Source: Stichopus chloronotus (lineage: Eukaryota; Echinodermata; Holothuroidea; Aspidochirotida; Stichopodidae). Taken from it: DNA of 64,000 bases. The stretch covers positions 15,207,444-15,271,443 of the forward strand of contig CM037848.1 of assembly GCA_021234535.1 (NCBI GenBank), in the 5' to 3' direction. The position numbers were made by a program, and so were the translations under genes. Positions 712 to 23,400 of the stretch are shown piece after piece; within the stretch, counting starts at the first letter, position 1, and the number at the start of each line of letters is the position of its first letter. Under the pieces are notes generated by a model, which did no database searches, was not told the DNA's origin, and saw nothing but the letters and a program-made list of their open reading frames with translations.

Positions 712-3700
712 AAACACCCCACTGCAGGTGTGAAATGCTATGTACACTATATATATATATATACTTTGCAGGGCAATGCAAAATATGTCCCTAGTTATGC
801 AATCTAGGTTTTCGAATTTGCTATTTTTGAATCCTCTGGACAACTGGGAATATCTGCCTCCTCCCGACAGAAAAGGCAATCAAGAGTTGTCACCTTCCTG
901 CAGGTTCGTTCACCGTCTGCGTCTGCTTGTAACGATGTTCTTTATATTGTGATGCATAAATGTCACCATTTGAAGCATTAACAATTTTGAAAGATCAGTT
1001 GTAATTTTTTCTCTGGGACAGTAAACAGGCAATATAGTGAACTTTTCTGAGTTAAAAAGCTTCCAAGGAACAGTACCTGACATGACAGTTCCGTGGAGGA
1101 GTACTTGCATAATGGTACGATGTTACATGAGCAATGTTCATGCATACCTAGAATCCTCAACTCCTATTAGTCCACTGCAGTCGGGTGACTGTAGTTTATC
1201 CTTGGATAAATGCACGGTAATTTTAAGAGTAAAATCACGGCTGGACTACAAAACCTTAGATTGGCATTGTTTTGTCTTCTCCTATATTACGTCATTGTAT
1301 AAACAAAACAATGGCAGTACTTTTTCCAACGCAAAGGAACAGTTCCCATGTTGTTAATTGTGTTACCTGTTCTCAGGTTTCATTTTCAATAAAAACGTGA
1401 TTATTTACAAAATCAAATTTTCTGTCATTTTCTGTCTTTGTCCTTTTTTTTTTTGTCTTTTTCTTTTCCCTTTTTTTTTTCACCAAAACCTCGCTGTGAA
1501 TGAACGAGGTTAATCAACGCGGGACCTGTGCATTAATTGCAGGATAATGCACTCTCGGAGGGTCAACGGTATCGCTGGAAGCAATCAAGCTGCGCCCACA
1601 TGCATCGCTTGCATCGACACCTGATCCTACATCATACATTATCCTCTAGTTATTGCACAGCCCAGGGTAGATTAAACTTTAATGTTCTGACCAAGAATAT
1701 ATTAAACCATTTTATAACCTAGAACTGCCAGAACATATCTGATGGGAGTGTTCCCAGGAATGCAACTCACATAATTGTTCTTGAAGAAGAGCTGCAACAT
1801 ACCTGTTCCGGGGATCTCTACTGAGAAAGTACAAGATTTGTGGAAATACTTCTGACGTGTTTCCAAGGAACAGAGGTGATGCAATCGCTCCTAGCTCCTT
1901 GCCACTGTTTCTTAAAAACAGAACTGGCCCAAGTATCGATCCACATTCACACTGCTGTTTTGTTGAAGTTTACAACATTGACATTACTGTTCTTGTGACA
2001 AAATAAAGAGAAAGGAAGGGGAAGGGAAACAAAGTAGAGATATTTGAGGGGTCGTGAAAGGTGCAGGGGGGTGATCAAAAGATGTGAGTATACTGTCAGA
2101 AAATTATGTTTGCAAATTAAATATGCCAGTTTAATAATTTACAGTTGCATGCAGACTTCAGTTCTCAAAGCTGTTAAGAGATTACCATCCATCAATTACC
2201 ATCATCTGACAGCAATAATACCAATAAGCTGTTCGTTTATCGAGTGAATCCCAGAGAATCAAGATGGTGGTTCTATCGTACCGTGAAAATCTGGACAGTG
2301 AGTGCTTCTTCCTGAGCACAGTGTGAAAATCAACTCTGCAACGTACTATAAATTGCTATGTAATTTGTCTCTGCTATGACTTCCACCAATGGCATATCAA
2401 ACTTCTGCCTACTTTCTGCATTTTCGTCATGCAAAATTGACGAGTGTATTAAAATGATAGAGACCGATGTATAGTGTACACATGACAAACCCTTGCTGCA
2501 CCTACAGTCACATGTGTGGTATCAGTATAGGCGGCGTCTTTCTCATTACTTCTTCCATTGGTATGATTGTGAACTGTTACCTGTCAAACAACACTCACAT
2601 TAATTTTATCCATGTGACCTCAAATTGTCATCAGCAAGGAAGAAGAAGGATGTTGCTATAGCGATTTTCTTTTACTTAACTCGTCCTTGACAAACTGAAA
2701 CTCGATCACAGAATCTCCACTTTAACATCAAAATCACAGAAAAAACGACAATTTTTAATGGACTGCACTATTCTAACAACTACTGAAAATTTAAAATTCA
2801 TATCTATGACAACCGGCCACTGTGAGATTTGTCTAAGATTTGCCAGTAGACGATTTGTTAAATGTCTCGCTGTATAAAGGGTAGACATACGTGTAACTAA
2901 GGTTGAGAAATGTGCTCTTCCTCATAAAGGACAATCCAAGCAACTCTGGTAAATGTCAAGAATTTTCCATACTGTACCATTGAAGTATACTTCAATAATA
3001 GTTCAGTGCAAATGACCTTCAAAATTAACCTTCTAATAGTTAAAAGTTTGATTCCAAACACAGGCATACATCTGCCACTTTTTGCTAAATTTACCATCTA
3101 GTCACGGGGCTAAAATTAAGTGGATTTATCAACAGCTTGGTTTCTTTTCCCGAGTACAGTAGTTTCACATGAAATGCACCGAGTTGTAGGACCTTTAAAT
3201 CTACACTTTGAAGACTCTAAGTCAACTACTGTTGTGTTTTGGTACCAACCTCCTCCTCCTAATCTGCTACATACTTGTTTTTAAACCTGTGACATTTTAC
3301 AGAGTGTCTCTCCCTGCATATAATTAGTAAGTTTGGCATGCATCAATTTCATTTATTCAAAAAATATTTGAGACTCAAAAATAGAGAGAAAAAAAACAAA
3401 CAATGAACAAACCATATCATTATGAGGCTGATTACTTGTTAAATAAGAAACGGATTGTTGAAGGAGTTTTACACGCCCTCTTCTTGGAGGTTAAAACATA
3501 GTGAGTCAAAAACTTAGGCATATGTCTATGTTACTCTCAATATAAATAATAAATCGCAACTCATATACACACACAGACAGTAAAAGAAATTAACTCCTCC
3601 AGACTACAGTGGGGAGAAGTGGGTGAGCCTTTTTTTAGTTCCCAACACATGAAGGGCTCACAGAAAGACAAGATCACAAAGTGATAAGAGTTTTCAAAAT

Positions 3701-3729
3701 TAAGCAAATTAATACCACCCTATCTTGCA

Positions 3730-4078
3730 GGGAAATAGGGCATTTGTTTTAGAGAAAACATCCATATTTTTAAAACCAATGTTTGAGGACGTAGAATGAT
3801 AGATTATTCAACATAACGAAGAAGAGCAGCCTTCTTTTCAAGAAATAAGCTTCTCAGAAGAAGAAATTCAGTTTTCGTTGCTCAAAACTAATTTGTTCAC
3901 CCAAACTTTTCAAAATTCAAATGATGCATCTTCCATTTCTCATCACATGCATAATGTTTTAAGGAGATGAAGCTTTGGGGTAGATGTTTATTGATGAGAC
4001 TGAATGGTTTAAAAATGATTAAAGCAATTTTCTTTTGTATGTCACGTTGGTGTATTTTAAACGCCCTATTTTCCTTAA
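3730..4078 (+). mobile_element. TTAA short inverted-repeat element, family 1, copy a
   Basis: It begins with GGGAAATAGGGCATTTG near 3730, where the left TTAA is degraded. It ends with GCCCTATTTTCCTTAA at 4078. The body closely resembles the complete copy at 51199-51554 read in the opposite direction. There is no coding capacity. Confidence 0.7.
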
Positions 4079-4312
4079 CTCTAAACACATCACACTACAA
4101 ACAATGGCCAAACAGTCCTTGAGGAAAAGGTAAAGATGACAGAATAAGCAACAACGAACATCAAAACGATAATGAGTGTATGATGGGTATAAAAATCCAT
4201 CAAAAACCTCCCCACTCGAAGCAGTTTAATTGTGAGAGGAAGAAGCAAGCACCAGTCTCAAGAGCACTGGACCATGATGTTGTTATTGATGAGTAGAAGG
4301 GGGTGCTATTCC

Positions 4313-4600
4313 AGAATGTGTTCGACAGCAATTCCCGACAATGCTAACTGCTACAGTGTACTCCAGGCCAGTAGATGAATAAATGAGAATACGTCTATTG
4401 TGACGAAGCAGGCATGCTGTATACAAATGCTATTTAAACACAAGTTCAGCACTTTCTTTTTTCGTGAGGGGGTTGCTTTTTCTTTTTTTTTGCTACTCAA
4501 GAATGTGTTAGACAGCACTTCCGGACAATGTTAAATGCCAAAGTTTGCTCCGGGCCAGTAGATGAGTAAAATGAGAATGCATCTACTGTGACGAGGCAGG
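4313..4600. repeat. Two-copy local duplication, period about 187 bp
   Basis: A roughly 98-base segment starting agaatgtgtt and including gccagtagatga and tgtgacga-gcagg occurs at 4313-4410. It recurs with scattered substitutions at 4500-4600. Confidence 0.8.
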
Positions 4601-5327
4601 TAAGAAGAGTGATGTAAATCAATGTTGTTCCATCACAAGTCCTGATGGTCCTTTTTAAGTTGATTGATGGTGGGATCAACTCAATGAATACTACCCTGTA
4701 ATTTCTAACAGGTATAGTTGAATGTCAAATATCATGTGTGTGGACTAAATCAGGACCACAATATCTACAAATTTAATATAAAAATATTCCAGTCAAATAC
4801 TCCCTGTTTTTGTTTGTTTCTCTTCTGATGGTTTCCCTCTCAACATGTCTTGCATATCTAACGTAACAGAAGTTATGTGTACAAACATGCAACTGCCCAA
4901 AAGAGACTTAGAATTACAGTCAAGAACATACATACACAAAAAACAAAACTTACTAAAACAACACACAAACACCCCAAAAAATTAGGAAAAATCTCTTATT
5001 CAACATCCTGAGAGTGACATGGAAATAACAAGTATCTGTTGTCTAAGAAGACATGACACTGTTCCATCCTTCTGCATCAAAGACCGCCAGAGGCCTTTCA
5101 GCTAAATAAGATGTTGCCATGGTAACATCCATTTGATGTCACTGAATTGTTTTTCCTCCTCCTCGCCAAGATTAGCGAGCGAATTTGACTCACTGATTCC
5201 AGCGGAACTGTGTGGCGTCTACGTGAGATGTAGAGCCAATGCAGGATTTGAATCAAAGAACACGAGAATTGCCTCAGAGAAGTATTCCTGGTGATGAAGA
5301 TGAGCATTTGAAAAAGAAAGCACTTAC

Positions 5328-14400: not shown

Positions 14401-17400
14401 ACAAAACTCTCAAAAGTGAAAAGCTTCCCAGTAGTGAAAGTGGAATAAAAATTTTCATTTTAACTCGCAGATGAATAATTCAACATAACCTCTCGAGGTT
14501 TGCAGACTGAGTGGGGTGTAAAGTGAAATACCCTCAAATTGCAGATTTAAAGCAGCAACTTTGGGATTTCCACAATTGTTGAGATTATAATTTGGATAAT
14601 TACAGAAGTTCTGATCGAATAAAAATTAACCAGGGAAGTATGCCAACAGAGGAATTTCACAACTTTGAGGGTCTCCTGTGTTTGCATATGATCAACAAGC
14701 TAAAGCTGTTAGAACTGAATCCTTTGATCCAGGCACGGCAGAACCAAAAACAAAATATGGGGGGAGGCCGAGAGCCGGCAGGACCATCTATGCGGACCAT
14801 TACACTACCATTGATCAACATGGAGAATACACAAAACTGTTGGCTTTAATAATAGGTTCCCCAGATGGCTGGAAATGGAATTTCACAAGTGTTCTAAGCA
14901 ATATTCACCCTGCCTTGATACAGGGATTTCAGGTTTGCAATCTGAATAATGCACACTCTTTTTATACTTATTCTTGGAGCAACTGGCAAATATCGGGAGT
15001 GGGGGCTAAGCATACCTTTAGCCCCCTTAATTTTTTCATTGGAGTGACTGAGTCTCCCCTAGGTCCCCCCTTTCAGTTCTGCTCCCATTGCTTTAATCCA
15101 TAGCTGTCAATGAATCACCATGGCACCATCTATAGCATCTAGAACTCAAAACTATGAATGATTTGACTTTATTCCACTCAATGGATCATCAACCAGAACG
15201 GCCATAGTCTACAGCGCACAGTTCATTGGATGATGGCTTCAGGCAGTGCCTCATTTACATCAAATTTAGCTGTAGTGACTTTATCCATTCTTCCTGGATT
15301 GCTTTCATTCGTAATTGTGGAGCAGCGCCATCATTATAATTACCACTTTGGAATTTCAGTCATTGTCATTTCTTATCAATTTGTACATTGACCATATGGC
15401 GATGATGTCCGAGCTAATGGAAAAAGAGTGATTAGCCTTTTGACCCTACATCGATCATATAAATGGTTAGAAATACTGGCTGTCAAGAAAGGGCTATTTT
15501 CCCACGTTGGACCTATTGAATCATTCTCATCTCGGATTTTGGAGATACAACAAGCACTACGGCAATATTAATCTTGTTGGAGTTCCGCTGTTAATTAAGT
15601 TAATTAGTCCGGGACTTACAATCGTCTTATATCTTGTCAGTGACTCATTGCACCGTCTCTACGTTATTCCTGAGGATCACGACCCATTTTATGATTCTAC
15701 GATTCGATGGGAACATTTGGTGTTATATTCGGAATATACTTCGCACTTATTATTATGACAGTTTATAGCATGCACTTGCGTAAGTTTATCGACGGGCACT
15801 AAATTGTAAACATTATTCGATATTACCGACTTGTGTTTATTCGTGCAGGAATTAAACATACACTTTATATTATTGTCATTATGATTGTGGAACCCGTTTC
15901 ATGATTTGATCGATGCTAACTCTGAAAGTTATTCGTTTGGAAATTGGAACTTGTGAATGGACTCTGATGAACGTCCCGTTCGGAACTATAAAAAAGGGTG
16001 AGTTGATATTCATTTATTAATTCAACCAAATTGGTGACCCCGACGTGATCTGATCTTTGGACGTGACACGTTCATTTCTTCCATTAGCTCGGACATCATC
16101 GCCATATGGTCAATGTACAAATTGATAAGAAATGACAATGACTGAAATTCCAAAGTGGTAATTATAATGATGGCGCTGCTCCACAATTACGAATGAAAGC
16201 AATCCAGGAAGAATGGATAAAGTCACTACATAGCCCCCTCCTCCATTAGCCTCATCATTATCTACAATTATATTATTCGAGCCCCAGTAGCATTATTTAC
16301 TGTGTTACTGTTGAATTACTCTAAAAAAAAACAATACAGAATACTCATAGCAGTGTTATCATCCTATTTGGATAGCCGCACGTATTATATTAGAAAGTTC
16401 ACCATAACTTATTAACATTATGTCTACCCAAAATGCTGCTACTACTCCCACGCTCGCTGCCGTCAGCGTAAAATTACCACCGTACTGGCCGAATGACCCC
16501 ACCATCTGGTTCGCACAGGTGGAGGCGCAGTTTGCCACGCGAGGTATAACGAGCGAGGAAACGAAATATCATTATGTTATCGGGTCATTACAACCCGACT
16601 TAGCACAGGAGGTTCGAGACATATTAATCGCTCCCCCAGCGGAAAATCCCTACAACACATTAAAGGCCGAGTTGATTAAGCGAACAACCGCCTCAGAGCA
16701 AAAACGTTTACATCGGTTGTTGAAAACGGAAGAGTTGGGCGACAATACGCCGTCACAACTCTTGAGAAAGATGTACCAATTATTAGGGGATAACAAACTG
16801 GAGCCCTCCATTCTTAAGCAACTATTTGTGCAGCGTTTACCCGCTAACATCCAACTGATCCTCGCGTCGGTCAGCGACACTACGGCAATCGAACAACTTG
16901 CACAAATGGAGATAATGGAGACCTCAAACACACAATACCTAGCGGCCATCAATCAAGCTAGTGCGTCTAACAGTAACACTGTCGTCACCGCGTCGGAAGT
17001 GCAGCAACTTCGCGATCAGATCAAGGAACTCACTTCCCAGTTAGCGGACCTTAAAACTGAAATGCGGGAAAGGAGTCGTAGCCGCGGCCGTTCTCAAAAA
17101 CGACAAAATAAATCAGATAACAAACGAGACTCCTCAACCTCTGGGTCTGATGACCTTTGCTGGTATCACAGGACCTATGGTGACAAGGCACTCAATTGCC
17201 GCAAGTCATGCAAGCTCTATGCCAAATATTTGGAAAACGCCAAGGCCAGCGAATAGTGGCGGCAACCGTTGGCCCAGATAACAGCCGCCTGTTTTATATT
17301 ATCGATAAGAACCATAACTTGAAATTGCTTGTTGACACAGGAGCCGCGGTCAGTGTAGTACCACCAACGAGCACTGACTTACGTAGTCGCGGAAATGGGC

Positions 17401-20400
17401 CCTCATTAAAAGCTATAAATGGTACTCCAATCACGACTTTCGGCTACAGGTCCTTAACACTAAATATAGGACTTCGGCGGCGTTTCCAGTGGATTTTTGT
17501 CGTAGCGGATGTACGCAAACCTATTTTAGGGTGTGACTTTTTAAGGCATTTTGCTCTTTTAGTAGACGTTAAGGGAAACCGTTTAGTCGATGCTCTTACT
17601 CACATCACTGTAACGGGGACTACTACTACTGAGAGAACATTGTCACCCACTTTCGCCACTTCAAACATTCACGCCGATTTTGACACACTTCTTAATGACT
17701 ACCCCTCCATTGCCATTCCTAACTTCAATGAGCTGCCTGTTAAACACAAGGTTACCCATCATATTACAACCAATGGACCTCCAGTAACAGCGCGTACGAG
17801 GCGTATGGCACCGGATAGACTTAAAGCCGCGCGGAATGCATTCGACCACATGTTGCAGCTTGGTATTATTAGACCCTCCGATAGCAATTGGGCATCACCG
17901 CTACACATGGTCCCAAAATCCTCTGGAGATTGGAGACCATGTGGAGATTATCGGGCCTTAAATAACATCACTGTACCGGATGCATATCCAATCCCGCACA
18001 TCCACGATTTTTCCGCGTCCCTTCATGGTGCCCGCATTTTCTCGAAGGTCGACCTTGTGCGGGCATATCATCAAATCCCGGTAGAGAAGTCCGATATTTG
18101 TAAAACAGCCGTAACTACGCCTTTCGGCCTATACGAGTTCATCCGAATGCCTTTCGGGCTCCGGAACTCAGCTCAGACGTTCCAAAGGTTCATGGATGAG
18201 GTGACGCGGGGCCTCCCATTCTGCTACGTTTATATTGATGATATTCTTATCGCCAGTGAGTCACACGATCAACACAAGCAACATATGAGGCAACTCTTCA
18301 GCAGATTACATGACTACGGTGTAGTCATAAATCCTGATAAATGCCTGTATGGCGTGACGTCGCTAGACTTTCTTGGACACAGAGTCGAACCGGGGGGCAT
18401 CCGACCCCTACCTGAAAAGGTACAAACAATCCACGACTTTCCAATACCAACTACTATACGCGGACTCCGTGAATACCTTGGACTGTTCAATTTTTATCGC
18501 CGGTTCATTCCACGTTGCTCCGAGTTGTTACAACCGTTGACTGATATTTTAGCAGGAAAGAAACCAAAATCAGCTCCAATTGTGCTGGACGAAATGGCGT
18601 CTCAGGCGTTTAATAACAGTAAAACAGAATTGGCGAACGCTACTCTCTTGGTTCATCCCGACCATACGAAACCACTCTCCCTGGTCGTCGATGCATCTGA
18701 TACCGGAGTAGGCGGGGCACTACAACAGTACCAAGATGGTTGCTGGCGTCCTATAGCATTCTTCTCCAAGAAACTTACTGACACTGAAAAGCGTTACAGT
18801 ACCTTCAGTCGTGAACTATTTGCAATGTATTTGTCCATACGTCATTTCAGACACTTGTTGGAGGGCCGTAAATTCCACATATGGACAGATCATAAACCGC
18901 TCACTTACGCCCTTAAGTCGGGTTCCGATCGCTATTCACCACGGGAAATCCGGCACTTGGATTTTGTGTCTCAATTTACGAATGACATTCGCCATATCAG
19001 CGGCAGGAACAATGCGGTGGCGGATGCCCTATCTCGTGCAGCGGTTAGCGGGATTGACTTGTCTGACACACCTGTTGATTTCGCGCAGATCGCCGCGGAA
19101 CAGCAGAACGACAGCGAACTTATGCGGTTATATGCCTCGTCGCCCGACAGATTCAAGGAAGTTCCACTCCCGTCTTCCGATGGAACTCTACTTTGTGATA
19201 TTACAAAGGGGCATCCCCGCCCGTTTGTACCGGAGAAGTTCCGACGACTTATTTTCGACAAACTTCATTCCATGTCACACCCAGGTATTCGTGCTACTCA
19301 GCGGTTAATCACAGACCGTTTTGTTTGGACCAGCATCAACAAAGATGTTAGGGACTGGGCAAAAACATGTCTTAAATGTCAGCGATCAAAAGTTCATCGT
19401 CACACTGTTGCTCCACTTGGAACATTCGCCAATCCGGATGCGCGTTTTGATCATGTCCATATTGACCTAGTGGGCCCGCTTCCTCCATCGAATGGCTCTA
19501 CATATCTTCTAACCATCATTGATCGGTTTACGAGATGGCCCGAAGCTATATGTTTACCAGACATAACAGCAGAGACCGTCGCCAAAGCTTTCCTTTCGCG
19601 ATGGATAGCGATGTTTGGGACACCTTCAATTATCACGACTGACCGGGGCACTCAGTTTGAATCAGATCTGTTCAAACAGCTCGCTATGCTCCTTGGCAGT
19701 ACTCGGGTGCGTACTACTTCGTATCATCCTATTGCGAACGGTCTTGTCGAACGTTTCCATCGCCAATTAAAACAGGCACTCAAAGCATCAAACGACTCTG
19801 CACGATGGTCCGAAGCTTTGCCCCTAATTCTTTTGAGTCTCAGAAACGCAATTAAGCCTGACATTGGTTGCACTGCCGCCGAATTAGTTTTTGGTGCCGC
19901 GCTTCGACTTCCCTGTGACATGATTTCACCCACTTCCAGTGATGCTTTGGACGACCCTACGCAGTATGTGGATCGCTTGCGGAAGCACATGTCTACCCTC
20001 CAACCGGCTACATCCAGACCGGCGACGAGAGATGAACATATACCTCCTGATTTACATACGTGCTCTCATGTTTGGGTTCGAGATGATCGGGTAAAACGTC
20101 CTCTACAACCTCCTTATCGTGGTCCTTACAAAATCGTCGATCGTAACGACAAATCATTTGCCCTCGAAATTAATGGTCGCACTGACTCGGTTTCTATTGA
20201 CCGGCTTAAAGTTGCTTATTTAGAAGATCCGCCGAAAACTCCTCAAATGAGTGACGCGCCTACCGCACCCACGGATTCGTCACAGTCCACTGAATTAACT
20301 CGCCCGTCAACCGTCGTTTCACGGTCCGGCAATGCCATACCTCGCACCATCACACGTTCTGGCAGGCATGTCCACTGGCCTGTGCGTTACCGCTAGAATA

Positions 20401-23400
20401 TTGTTGTGACCTTGTGTCAGTATCATTATCATTGTTTTCTTTTCCATGTGGCTTTCTCTTTCTGTCGATCACTCATTTATTTCGTGATCTAGGAGGGGGC
20501 TATGTAGTGACTTTATCCATTCTTCCTGGATTGCTTTCATTCGTAATTGTGGAGCAGCGCCATCATTATAATTACCACTTTGGAATTTCAGTCATTGTCA
20601 TTTCTTATCAATTTGTACATTGACCATATGGCGATGATGTCCGAGCTAATGGAAAAAGAGTGATTAGCCTTTTGACCCTACATCGATCACATAAATGGTT
20701 AGAAATACTGGCTGTCAAGAAAGGGCTATTTTCCCACGTTGGACCTATTGAATCATTCTCATCTCGGATTTTGGAGATACAACAAGCACTACGGCAATAT
20801 TAATCTTGTTGGAGTTCCGCTGTTAATTAAGTTAATTAGTCCGGGACTTACAATCGTCTTATATCTTGTCAGTGACTCATTGCACCGTCTCTACGTTATT
20901 CCTGAGGATCACGACCCATTTTATGATTCTACGATTCGATGGGAACATTTGGTGTTATATTCGGAATATACTTCGCACTTATTATTATGACAGTTTATAG
21001 TATGCACTTGCGTAAGTTTATCGACGGGCACTAAATTGTAAACATTATTCGATATTACCGACTTGTGTTTATTCGTGCAGGAATTAAACATACACTTTAT
21101 ATTATTGTCATTATGATTGTGGAACCCGTTTCATGATTTGATCGATGCTAACTCTGAAAGTTATTCGTTTGGAAATTGGAACTTGTGAATGGACTCTGAT
21201 GAACGTCCCGTTCGGAACTATAAAAAAGGGTGAGTTGATATTCATTTATTAATTCAACCAAATAGCTTTGAATTTGATCAAATTCATTAAAATTTATTTT
21301 TATTATTATATTATCAAATTTAATTTAGTTTGTAGTCAATGGTCTCATAATACCAACATTTGGTCATCTTGATCAACACTTTTTGAGTGGGTAGGTTTGT
21401 TGCATGAATGTCCGACAGCACAAATCTCATGTAGAATATATCAAAGTGAATAACCATTCACATTGTGATGTGATCATCTGGTAAATGATATTCACTGAGG
21501 TTGAGAATGCAAACTGAAATTAAGAACCGGACTAGCCTTTGATTTTGCAGACATCCATCAAAAATCGGGCATGCGATTTGACCCTCAGCTAGAACTTATT
21601 CATAGGTCTAGGCTAGATGGCCCTCTATACTACACAAAATTGAGAACCAAGTTACTGTCTTTGACGGCTAATTGGGGCATAAATGTTTTACATTGAAGAC
21701 AATGCCGATGAAAACACCAGCTACTCATCTGGAGGAACTCTGCCATCAGCCCCCTCCCCCCTCATCCAACTGCACTGACCAATCTTTTGATTATCTGCAA
21801 ATCACCAGAATATTTCTAAGTTTTCATCTGGTAACATTGTCTACAACAAAGCTCACCCCTTTCACAGGTGCTCTAAACTAAACTCTCTCAGTGGAAGGGT
21901 TGGCTCTTCTCATCGTCTCTTTGCCCATCCCCTAACCCCCATCCACCCCACCCCGTGCTGCCCCTCCACCCCAACCCCCATCTTTTCATCTGTAAGCGGC
22001 TCTTTTCAATTCATTAAAGCATATCCTCAATGGGCATACTTCATACTCGGAGAAATGGCATGCCATTGAAGAAAACAATCAGAAGAACTATACACCATTT
22101 TGCAGTAATAAAAGTTATCTTTCCTTGTATATCTCACCATTTACCACCATCCCACCCCTCCCCCACTCTGCAAATGTACAGACATTCCAAAACATAGAGT
22201 TATCCTTCTCCAGTACAAAACTTTTACTGTCATGCACTCACCTCGTAAGTGCCATCTGCGTAGGGAGGAAGTTCTTGGTTGAGAAGCTCCTGAATAATAT
22301 TTGATATCGTGACGATGCTATTTTCGGCGTCCGTTAAATCTGAATAAAGACAAGTCGTTGACATACAGAATATCAGTCAACAACAGACGATGTATGAAAA
22401 AAGCATCCGTTTGAACATACCCAAAGACGGAGGGGAGGTGCAAGGTTTGCAGCGATTTTCTTAAAGTGAAAATACGATGAGGAGCCCTTTGGGATGCCAA
22501 ACATTTGAGGCAGGATAGGTACTCCACTTGTGTAAATATATTCCTGTGAAATATTCCTACAAAAGAGCCATAAAGATGAAGACTTGCTGAGGTTAAGTAG
22601 AAAGTGACTCAACAGGGAAAAAAAAGAAGTTGGCAAAAGACATTCTTTGTTGACAGGATCCTGATTTTGAAATCAAATATAGTTGAACTATGTATCCCAC
22701 TCTGAAAGCCAACATTCAAATCTAGTACTATGTTTTCTGTAGGGTAAACACTTCTGCCATTGAGTCAGTTTCTATTCATGACCTTTGCATAATGCATATG
22801 CATATTGCATGTGTATATGCACATGTATATGCACATGAATGGATATTCATGAGGGCTGTATATGGCTTATTTAATTGAGAAAGTGCAATAAAAAGTATGG
22901 AGTATTATTTTTTTTTTCAAAAGTTCTCATAATCCTTTACAGGTTGCAGGTTTCAAATACAAACAATAAAAGGTTCCCTTGCAATGCCTAAGAACAGCCT
23001 ATAGTACTTTAAAGACTGTGGGTTTAAAGTGGAACGAATAAAAGGATCTTTTTAAAGCCTCAGATAATTAAAATCTCTCTCCCAGGTTCAATCATTGGCT
23101 CTCTTGTTCACTGTCTTCCAGACAAGGTTGGTACATAGTTTGTACAAATACGCACTGACTCTGTATACACTAATATAAACTGGACTTGCATGTTACTTAA
23201 CACAAGTGTAACATGATGACGCACATTTCCATTACAATGACAACTGCTTCAAAGAGGGGAGCAATGAATCCATGTATTGCCTTTGTTTAAATTTCATGTT
23301 TGTTTTTTTTCCCCAAATCGAATCCAAAACAACTAGGAAATTAAAAAAAAAACATTTTCTTTGTCTTGCAGCTACATTTTAAATAATATCCAAACATTCA

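Follow-up and report, generated by a model that had tools for sequence, protein, structure and literature searches.

An inverted copy of the polypurine tract and U3 start in the 5' leader of a CsRn1-like retrotransposon of Stichopus chloronotus, probably a reverse-transcription accident

Introduction

An LTR retrotransposon in the genome of the sea cucumber Stichopus chloronotus carries, in its own 5' leader, a perfect inverted copy of its polypurine tract (PPT) and of the start of its U3. How did this copy arise, and does it serve the element? A preliminary description of the locus had proposed a template switch during reverse transcription and had named a panhandle, double-stranded RNA or a second antisense PPT as possible outcomes. 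Here, we analyse the element in its window, the whole 64,000-nucleotide stretch of DNA under study, and compare it with its relatives in the same assembly.

Results

The host element

The element occupies positions 15271-21262 of the window and has 760-bp LTRs and open gag and pol frames (Table 1). A 4-bp duplication at the LTR borders is found in 17 of the 19 tabulated LTR-bearing loci of the family and is absent in C7 and s20.

Table 1. Features of the retrotransposon and of the inverted insert, in window coordinates
Feature	Position	Strand	Basis
Target-site duplication TAGC, left	15267..15270	.	identical 4 bp at 21263-21266
5' LTR (TGT...AAA)	15271..16030	+	sequence
Primer-binding site TGGTGACCCCGACGTGAT, tRNA-Trp type; 3' limit putative	16032..16049	+	sequence; start fits CsRn1-clade motif (extracts of PMC2582038)
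10-nt junction match TTCCATTAGC, common to natural leader and reverse complement of U3	16079..16088	+	
Inverted copy: PPT (12 nt) and first 152 nt of U3	16079..16242	-	sequence comparison
Second CCATTAGC, where the natural leader picks up again	16243..16250	+	
gag frame	16420..17256	+	Pfam DUF7041; CWYH...C...C motif by eye
pol frame: RT, RNase H, integrase (Pfam); overlaps gag in -1 frame	17184..20396	+	
Polypurine tract AGGAGGGGGCTA	20491..20502	+	sequence
3' LTR, first 152 nt = insert source	20503..21262	+	sequence
Target-site duplication TAGC, right	21263..21266	.	

By feature match to descriptions in parts of PMC2582038, the element appears to be a CsRn1-like Ty3/gypsy retrotransposon. 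The clade's primer-binding motif for tRNA-Trp, given there as TGGTGAG/CCCCGT/A, is present as TGGTGACCCCGA at 16032, and the 4-bp target-site duplication of the clade is present as TAGC on both sides. The clade is also said to have a unique Gag motif (extracts of PMC2582038). In the window element, Pfam identifies DUF7041 in Gag, where a cysteine/histidine motif, CWYH...C...C, was spotted by eye. The clade's own motif is presumably the one called CHCC.

Among the 120 gag protein matches listed of 863, most of those named by organism are from echinoderms and one is from a jellyfish; the best listed is from Apostichopus, at 61%. The 120 pol matches listed are 52-82% identical. They include an Apostichopus match with 82% identity across 81% of the query, and two Sparganum (tapeworm) proteins are within the top four listed. 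A search for pol relatives in viral contigs found none.

The insert and its junctions

All 164 positions of the segment 16079-16242 agree with the reverse complement of 20491-20654, and the identity ends at both borders. This match to the PPT and U3 is far beyond chance. The preliminary description had reported exactly this 164-base relation and had placed it in a retrotransposon leader; both statements hold, with an element open in gag and pol and an insert made of 12 nt of PPT and 152 nt of U3. The 5' LTR begins with the same 152 nt (15271-15422). Since the PPT adjoins the 3' LTR copy only, the PPT-U3 junction at the 3' end of the element is the source of the insert; the 5' LTR, which has no PPT upstream, was rejected as a source.

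The insert starts 30 nt past the primer-binding site. Its right end coincides, within the 1 nt of ambiguity, with the 5' edge of the PPT purine run, and the sequence of the right junction is CCCCCTCCTCCATTAGCC. The octamer CCATTAGC is found at 16081-16088 and again at 16243-16250. Target duplication by integration was rejected as the origin of this repeat, because the native U3 already contains it and the target duplication of the element measures 4 bp. Autointegration was likewise rejected, since it would not copy just 152 nt of U3 and since the junction falls at the PPT, 12 nt beyond the LTR end.

Other copies carry an empty site

We searched the assembly (719 Mb, 267 contigs), in which counts of repeats are lower bounds. 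The 164-nt query has at least 29 matches, the leader 3' of the insert has at least three in the whole assembly, and a 1.2-kb pol piece has at least three close matches and one weak match. C14 and C7 are the other full-length copies, with both LTRs and a leader, and their gag and pol are 97-98% identical. The insert is missing in both (2/2), and they run through the site as ...CATTTCTTCCATTAGCCTCATC..., giving the window copy a net gain of 162 nt over the empty site. The right junction occurs once in the assembly with up to three mismatches permitted. Of 17 places with a single LTR match, 14 were examined; C6:18354018, C15:20161412 and C12:16099102 (71-85% identity) were left out. The search for the leader segment in other family copies, suggested in the preliminary description, thus locates the insert in the window copy only. 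Because C14 and C7 lack it, the insert is a gain of 162 nt by the window copy or its immediate sublineage.

We also took the 5' LTR and leader from 12 copies of a sister family, whose pol protein identity is 64-67%. L042 was left out of the count, lacking a primer-binding motif. None of the remaining 11 leaders contains an inverted U3 copy, and the same script detects the window control. Three of the 12 sister stretches (L036, L039, L041) have a short self-palindrome of 22-54 nt, none of which pairs leader with U3. Eight distant relatives (L043-L050) were not counted as leaders, having no recognisable primer-binding motif; one of them, L044, has a single inverted pair at 70%.

Long inverted repeats are prone to misassembly and a single assembly was examined, so an assembly or chimeric-read artefact has to be considered. 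We regard it as very improbable: the insert is base-perfect, has a simple microhomology junction in an otherwise collinear element, and lies within a 17.6-Mb contig. The rearrangement, judged by its sequence, is real, recent and of a known type, and was seen in the window copy only.

Aberrant copies of the family

Several further loci of the family are unusual. In L014 (C13, G000:C13:5273500-5283400, 3587-4923), a rearranged close kin, U3 nt 210-432 are joined to the pol tail, followed by the PPT and a full 3' LTR. The U3-pol join has an overlap of about 4 nt and one extra base. GATT is found at both ends, 1 nt beyond the truncated 5' end on one side and immediately following the 3' LTR on the other, so a truncated cDNA may have integrated. 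L021 (s21, G000:C19:13816500-13819500, about 1689-1706) is a solo LTR that has its start twice (TGTAGTGACTTTATC, TA, TGTAGTGACTTTATC) within an intact CATC duplication; this 4-bp duplication sits at the outer border of the duplicated start. It looks as if a short plus strand starting at TA|TG had been copied twice. L030 (G000:C7:15965500-15968500, 1051-1885) is also a solo LTR; within an intact AAGT duplication, it repeats roughly LTR nt 29-104 in direct orientation. L015 (C8, G000:C8:8887300-8896200) has no insert; it combines LTRs and a PPT of the window family (LTR 89%) with gag/pol pieces of about 64-69% DNA identity, and appears from these identities to be a between-family recombinant.

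Age of the insertion

The two LTRs of the window copy differ at 2 of 757 aligned sites, in line with the two differences reported in the preliminary description, compared with 7/754 in C14, 13/760 in C7 and 17/764 in C8. Among 23 LTR rows, of which six were left out of the position-wise comparison because of indels, zero differences to the 152 nt of the insert are found only in the two LTRs of the window copy, C13 and the solo LTR s16. The distance to the window 5' LTR is two sites and one gap position for s16 and four for C13; the next nearest is at 10. Since, among the rows compared, the 152-nt U3 is identical only to these LTRs, the insert was most likely made within the young sublineage of the window copy. 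The leader has been lost from C13, and s16 consists of a solo LTR, so neither bears on whether the insert has moved.

The preliminary description had concluded from the absence of differences that the insert was "recent or maintained". By our own arithmetic, the LTR rate predicts about 0.4 differences over 152 nt, so zero differences says little alone and that reasoning is weak. Recency stands nevertheless; maintenance is not supported, with two of two full-length copies and 11 of 11 sister leaders free of the insert and the right junction found once.

Upstream AUGs and RNA structure

Between the primer-binding site and gag, C7 has no ATG, C14 has one, C8 two and the window copy eight. All eight lie within the insert, for which shuffling gives 2.6, and all open short frames of 6-18 codons. 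In all 11 sister leaders (L031-L041), the first ATG is found 114 or 132 nt past the primer-binding site and is apparently that of gag, the gag start having been read by eye in one.

Shuffled C7 and C14 leaders have a mean of about 3.6 ATGs, and about 2.5% have none. For single sister leaders, 9-15% of shuffles have zero ATGs, so that their lack of ATGs is not unusual, and the copies do not count as independent. Leaders free of AUGs are not the rule throughout the group: there are none before the apparent gag start in the L031-L041 sisters but two in C8.

The 164-bp perfect duplex between leader and U3 was computed at -311 kcal/mol, and the arms alone at -24 and -34. When the leader RNA (16010-16425) is folded locally, it does no better than shuffles (z 0.11). 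A panhandle or double-stranded RNA, as the preliminary description had envisaged, is physically plausible from the computed duplex. Its third suggestion, a second antisense PPT, fails: in the sense RNA the inverted tract reads CCCCCUCCU, a pyrimidine tract, which cannot prime plus strands.

Discussion

Origin of the insert

We consider a one-off template-switch insertion during reverse transcription of the window copy, or of a very recent ancestor, to be the probable origin of the insert. In such an event, plus-strand DNA would pass the primer-binding site, copy about 40 nt of leader and end in TTCCATTAGC. This end would anneal to GCTAATGGAA in displaced plus-strand strong-stop DNA with the PPT RNA primer still attached. 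Extension would proceed through U3 and then the PPT to the 5' end of the displaced strand, where it would run off, and the nascent strand would rejoin the leader of the minus strand immediately ahead of CCATTAGC.

Two marks of a template switch are seen here: sibling copies have an empty site, and the junctions show microhomology, 10 nt on the left and about 1 nt on the right. The preliminary description had argued from an 8-base repeat at the borders; judged at the empty site, the CCATTAGC repeat grows to a 10-nt match. In C14 as in C7, TTCCATTAGC is the longest word that the natural leader has in common with the reverse-complemented PPT plus LTR. After shuffling of the leaders, the longest common word still reaches at least 10 nt in 24 of 100 and 25 of 100 trials, so a word of 10 nt is unremarkable in itself.

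Among single templates, the simplest one to end where the insert ends on the right is a plus strand still joined to PPT RNA. According to extracts of PMC5371799, Ty3 re-primes from its PPT and dead-end plus strong-stop DNA accumulates. The ends of Ty3 RNA are reported to be bridged via a two-part primer-binding site. The end at the PPT edge, the re-priming and bridged RNA ends of Ty3, and the position of the insert 30 nt past the primer-binding site, the place at which plus-strand synthesis resumes, together make reverse transcription the best reading. The further aberrant copies of the family, C13 and s21, also speak for it. Against it, the event is single, so that the coincidence with the PPT edge cannot be checked for recurrence. 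The return junction matches over about 1 nt and is nearly devoid of homology, a type of jump reported to be rare: retroviral reverse transcriptase makes non-homologous switches at least 1000-fold less often than homologous ones (extracts of PMC3187697).

The same intermediates could be used along another path, in which an incomplete plus strong-stop DNA carrying PPT RNA anneals to the genomic RNA leader through its own 3' end (GCTAATGGAA) and is extended as minus-sense DNA, its 5' end being joined later to the main minus strand. Both junctions would come out the same. This path would require homology-free strand joining at the RNA 5' end, instead of run-off and return, and we find it improbable.

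Host replication or break repair after integration (MMBIR, templated insertion) could also have led from the leader to the U3 of the other strand via TTCCATTAGC, with about 150 nt copied before the return. It would yield the same orientation, junction match and duplicated CCATTAGC, and templated inverted insertions are seen at yeast breaks (extracts of PMC11724301). The same extracts give sizes of about 5-34 bp for most of them, of 2 to about 150 bp for local foldbacks and, in an rtt105 mutant, a median of 150 bp for inverted pairs lying far apart. Most simple inverted insertions there are far shorter than the present one. With a donor-target distance of 4.4 kb and an end at the PPT edge that would be a coincidence, host repair seems rather unlikely, if clearly worth weighing.

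Consequences for the element

A functional leader element, maintained in an active lineage through a panhandle, double-stranded RNA or end bridging, would fit the open gag and pol frames, the two LTR differences, the strong predicted duplex and the bridging described for Ty3. In so young a copy, however, open frames prove no function. The insert is missing in both other full copies and all 11 sister leaders, and it adds eight upstream ATGs to a leader that has none in C7, one in C14, two in C8 and none in the 11 sisters. We consider such a function most improbable. More specifically, the window copy could be an active master whose leader pairs with its 3' U3 over 164 bp, either bridging the RNA ends as in Ty3 or forming a hairpin as a source of small RNAs directed at the LTR family as a whole, with C13 and s16 as leader-less offspring; this, too, we regard as very doubtful.

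There is no evidence that the insert benefits the element. With eight upstream AUGs and a predicted 164-bp duplex, it is probably harmful rather than maintained, as these features would be expected to impair the translation of Gag or to make the RNA a target of double-stranded RNA pathways.

As a reverse-transcription accident, the insert would be a small, clean fossil of plus-strand synthesis, both ends of which point to a PPT-primed template with the RNA primer attached. If such inserts recur in Ty3/gypsy leaders, they would show the dead-end plus strands of yeast Ty3 in natural genomes. The insert also illustrates a one-step route by which a natural double-stranded RNA trigger against a retrotransposon family could originate.

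Comparison with known systems

Compared with descriptions in parts of PMC2582038, the element shares its tRNA-Trp primer-binding motif and 4-bp target duplication with the CsRn1 clade (CsRn1, PwRn1, AgCRs), its LTR ends TGT...AAA with some AgCR elements, and the gag/pol overlap by a -1 frame with some elements of the clade. It differs in the inverted PPT-U3 copy in its leader, which is absent from the other copies examined. The dead-end plus strong-stop DNA of Ty3 would provide the proposed template (extracts of PMC5371799); this re-priming is reported in yeast Ty3 and is putative in the CsRn1 clade.

In the literature searched, with partial coverage, we found no comparable inverted PPT-U3 insert and no PPT retained at circle junctions. 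Intramolecular switches that yield insertions and duplications are reviewed in PMC3187697, and a tally of HIV-1 proviruses includes one inversion and one inversion with deletion, 1.3% each (PMC9278108; extracts of both). The insert resembles such template-switch rearrangements of proviruses in its microhomology junction and its intramolecular nature, and differs from them in being an inserted, inverted second copy that ends at the PPT edge.
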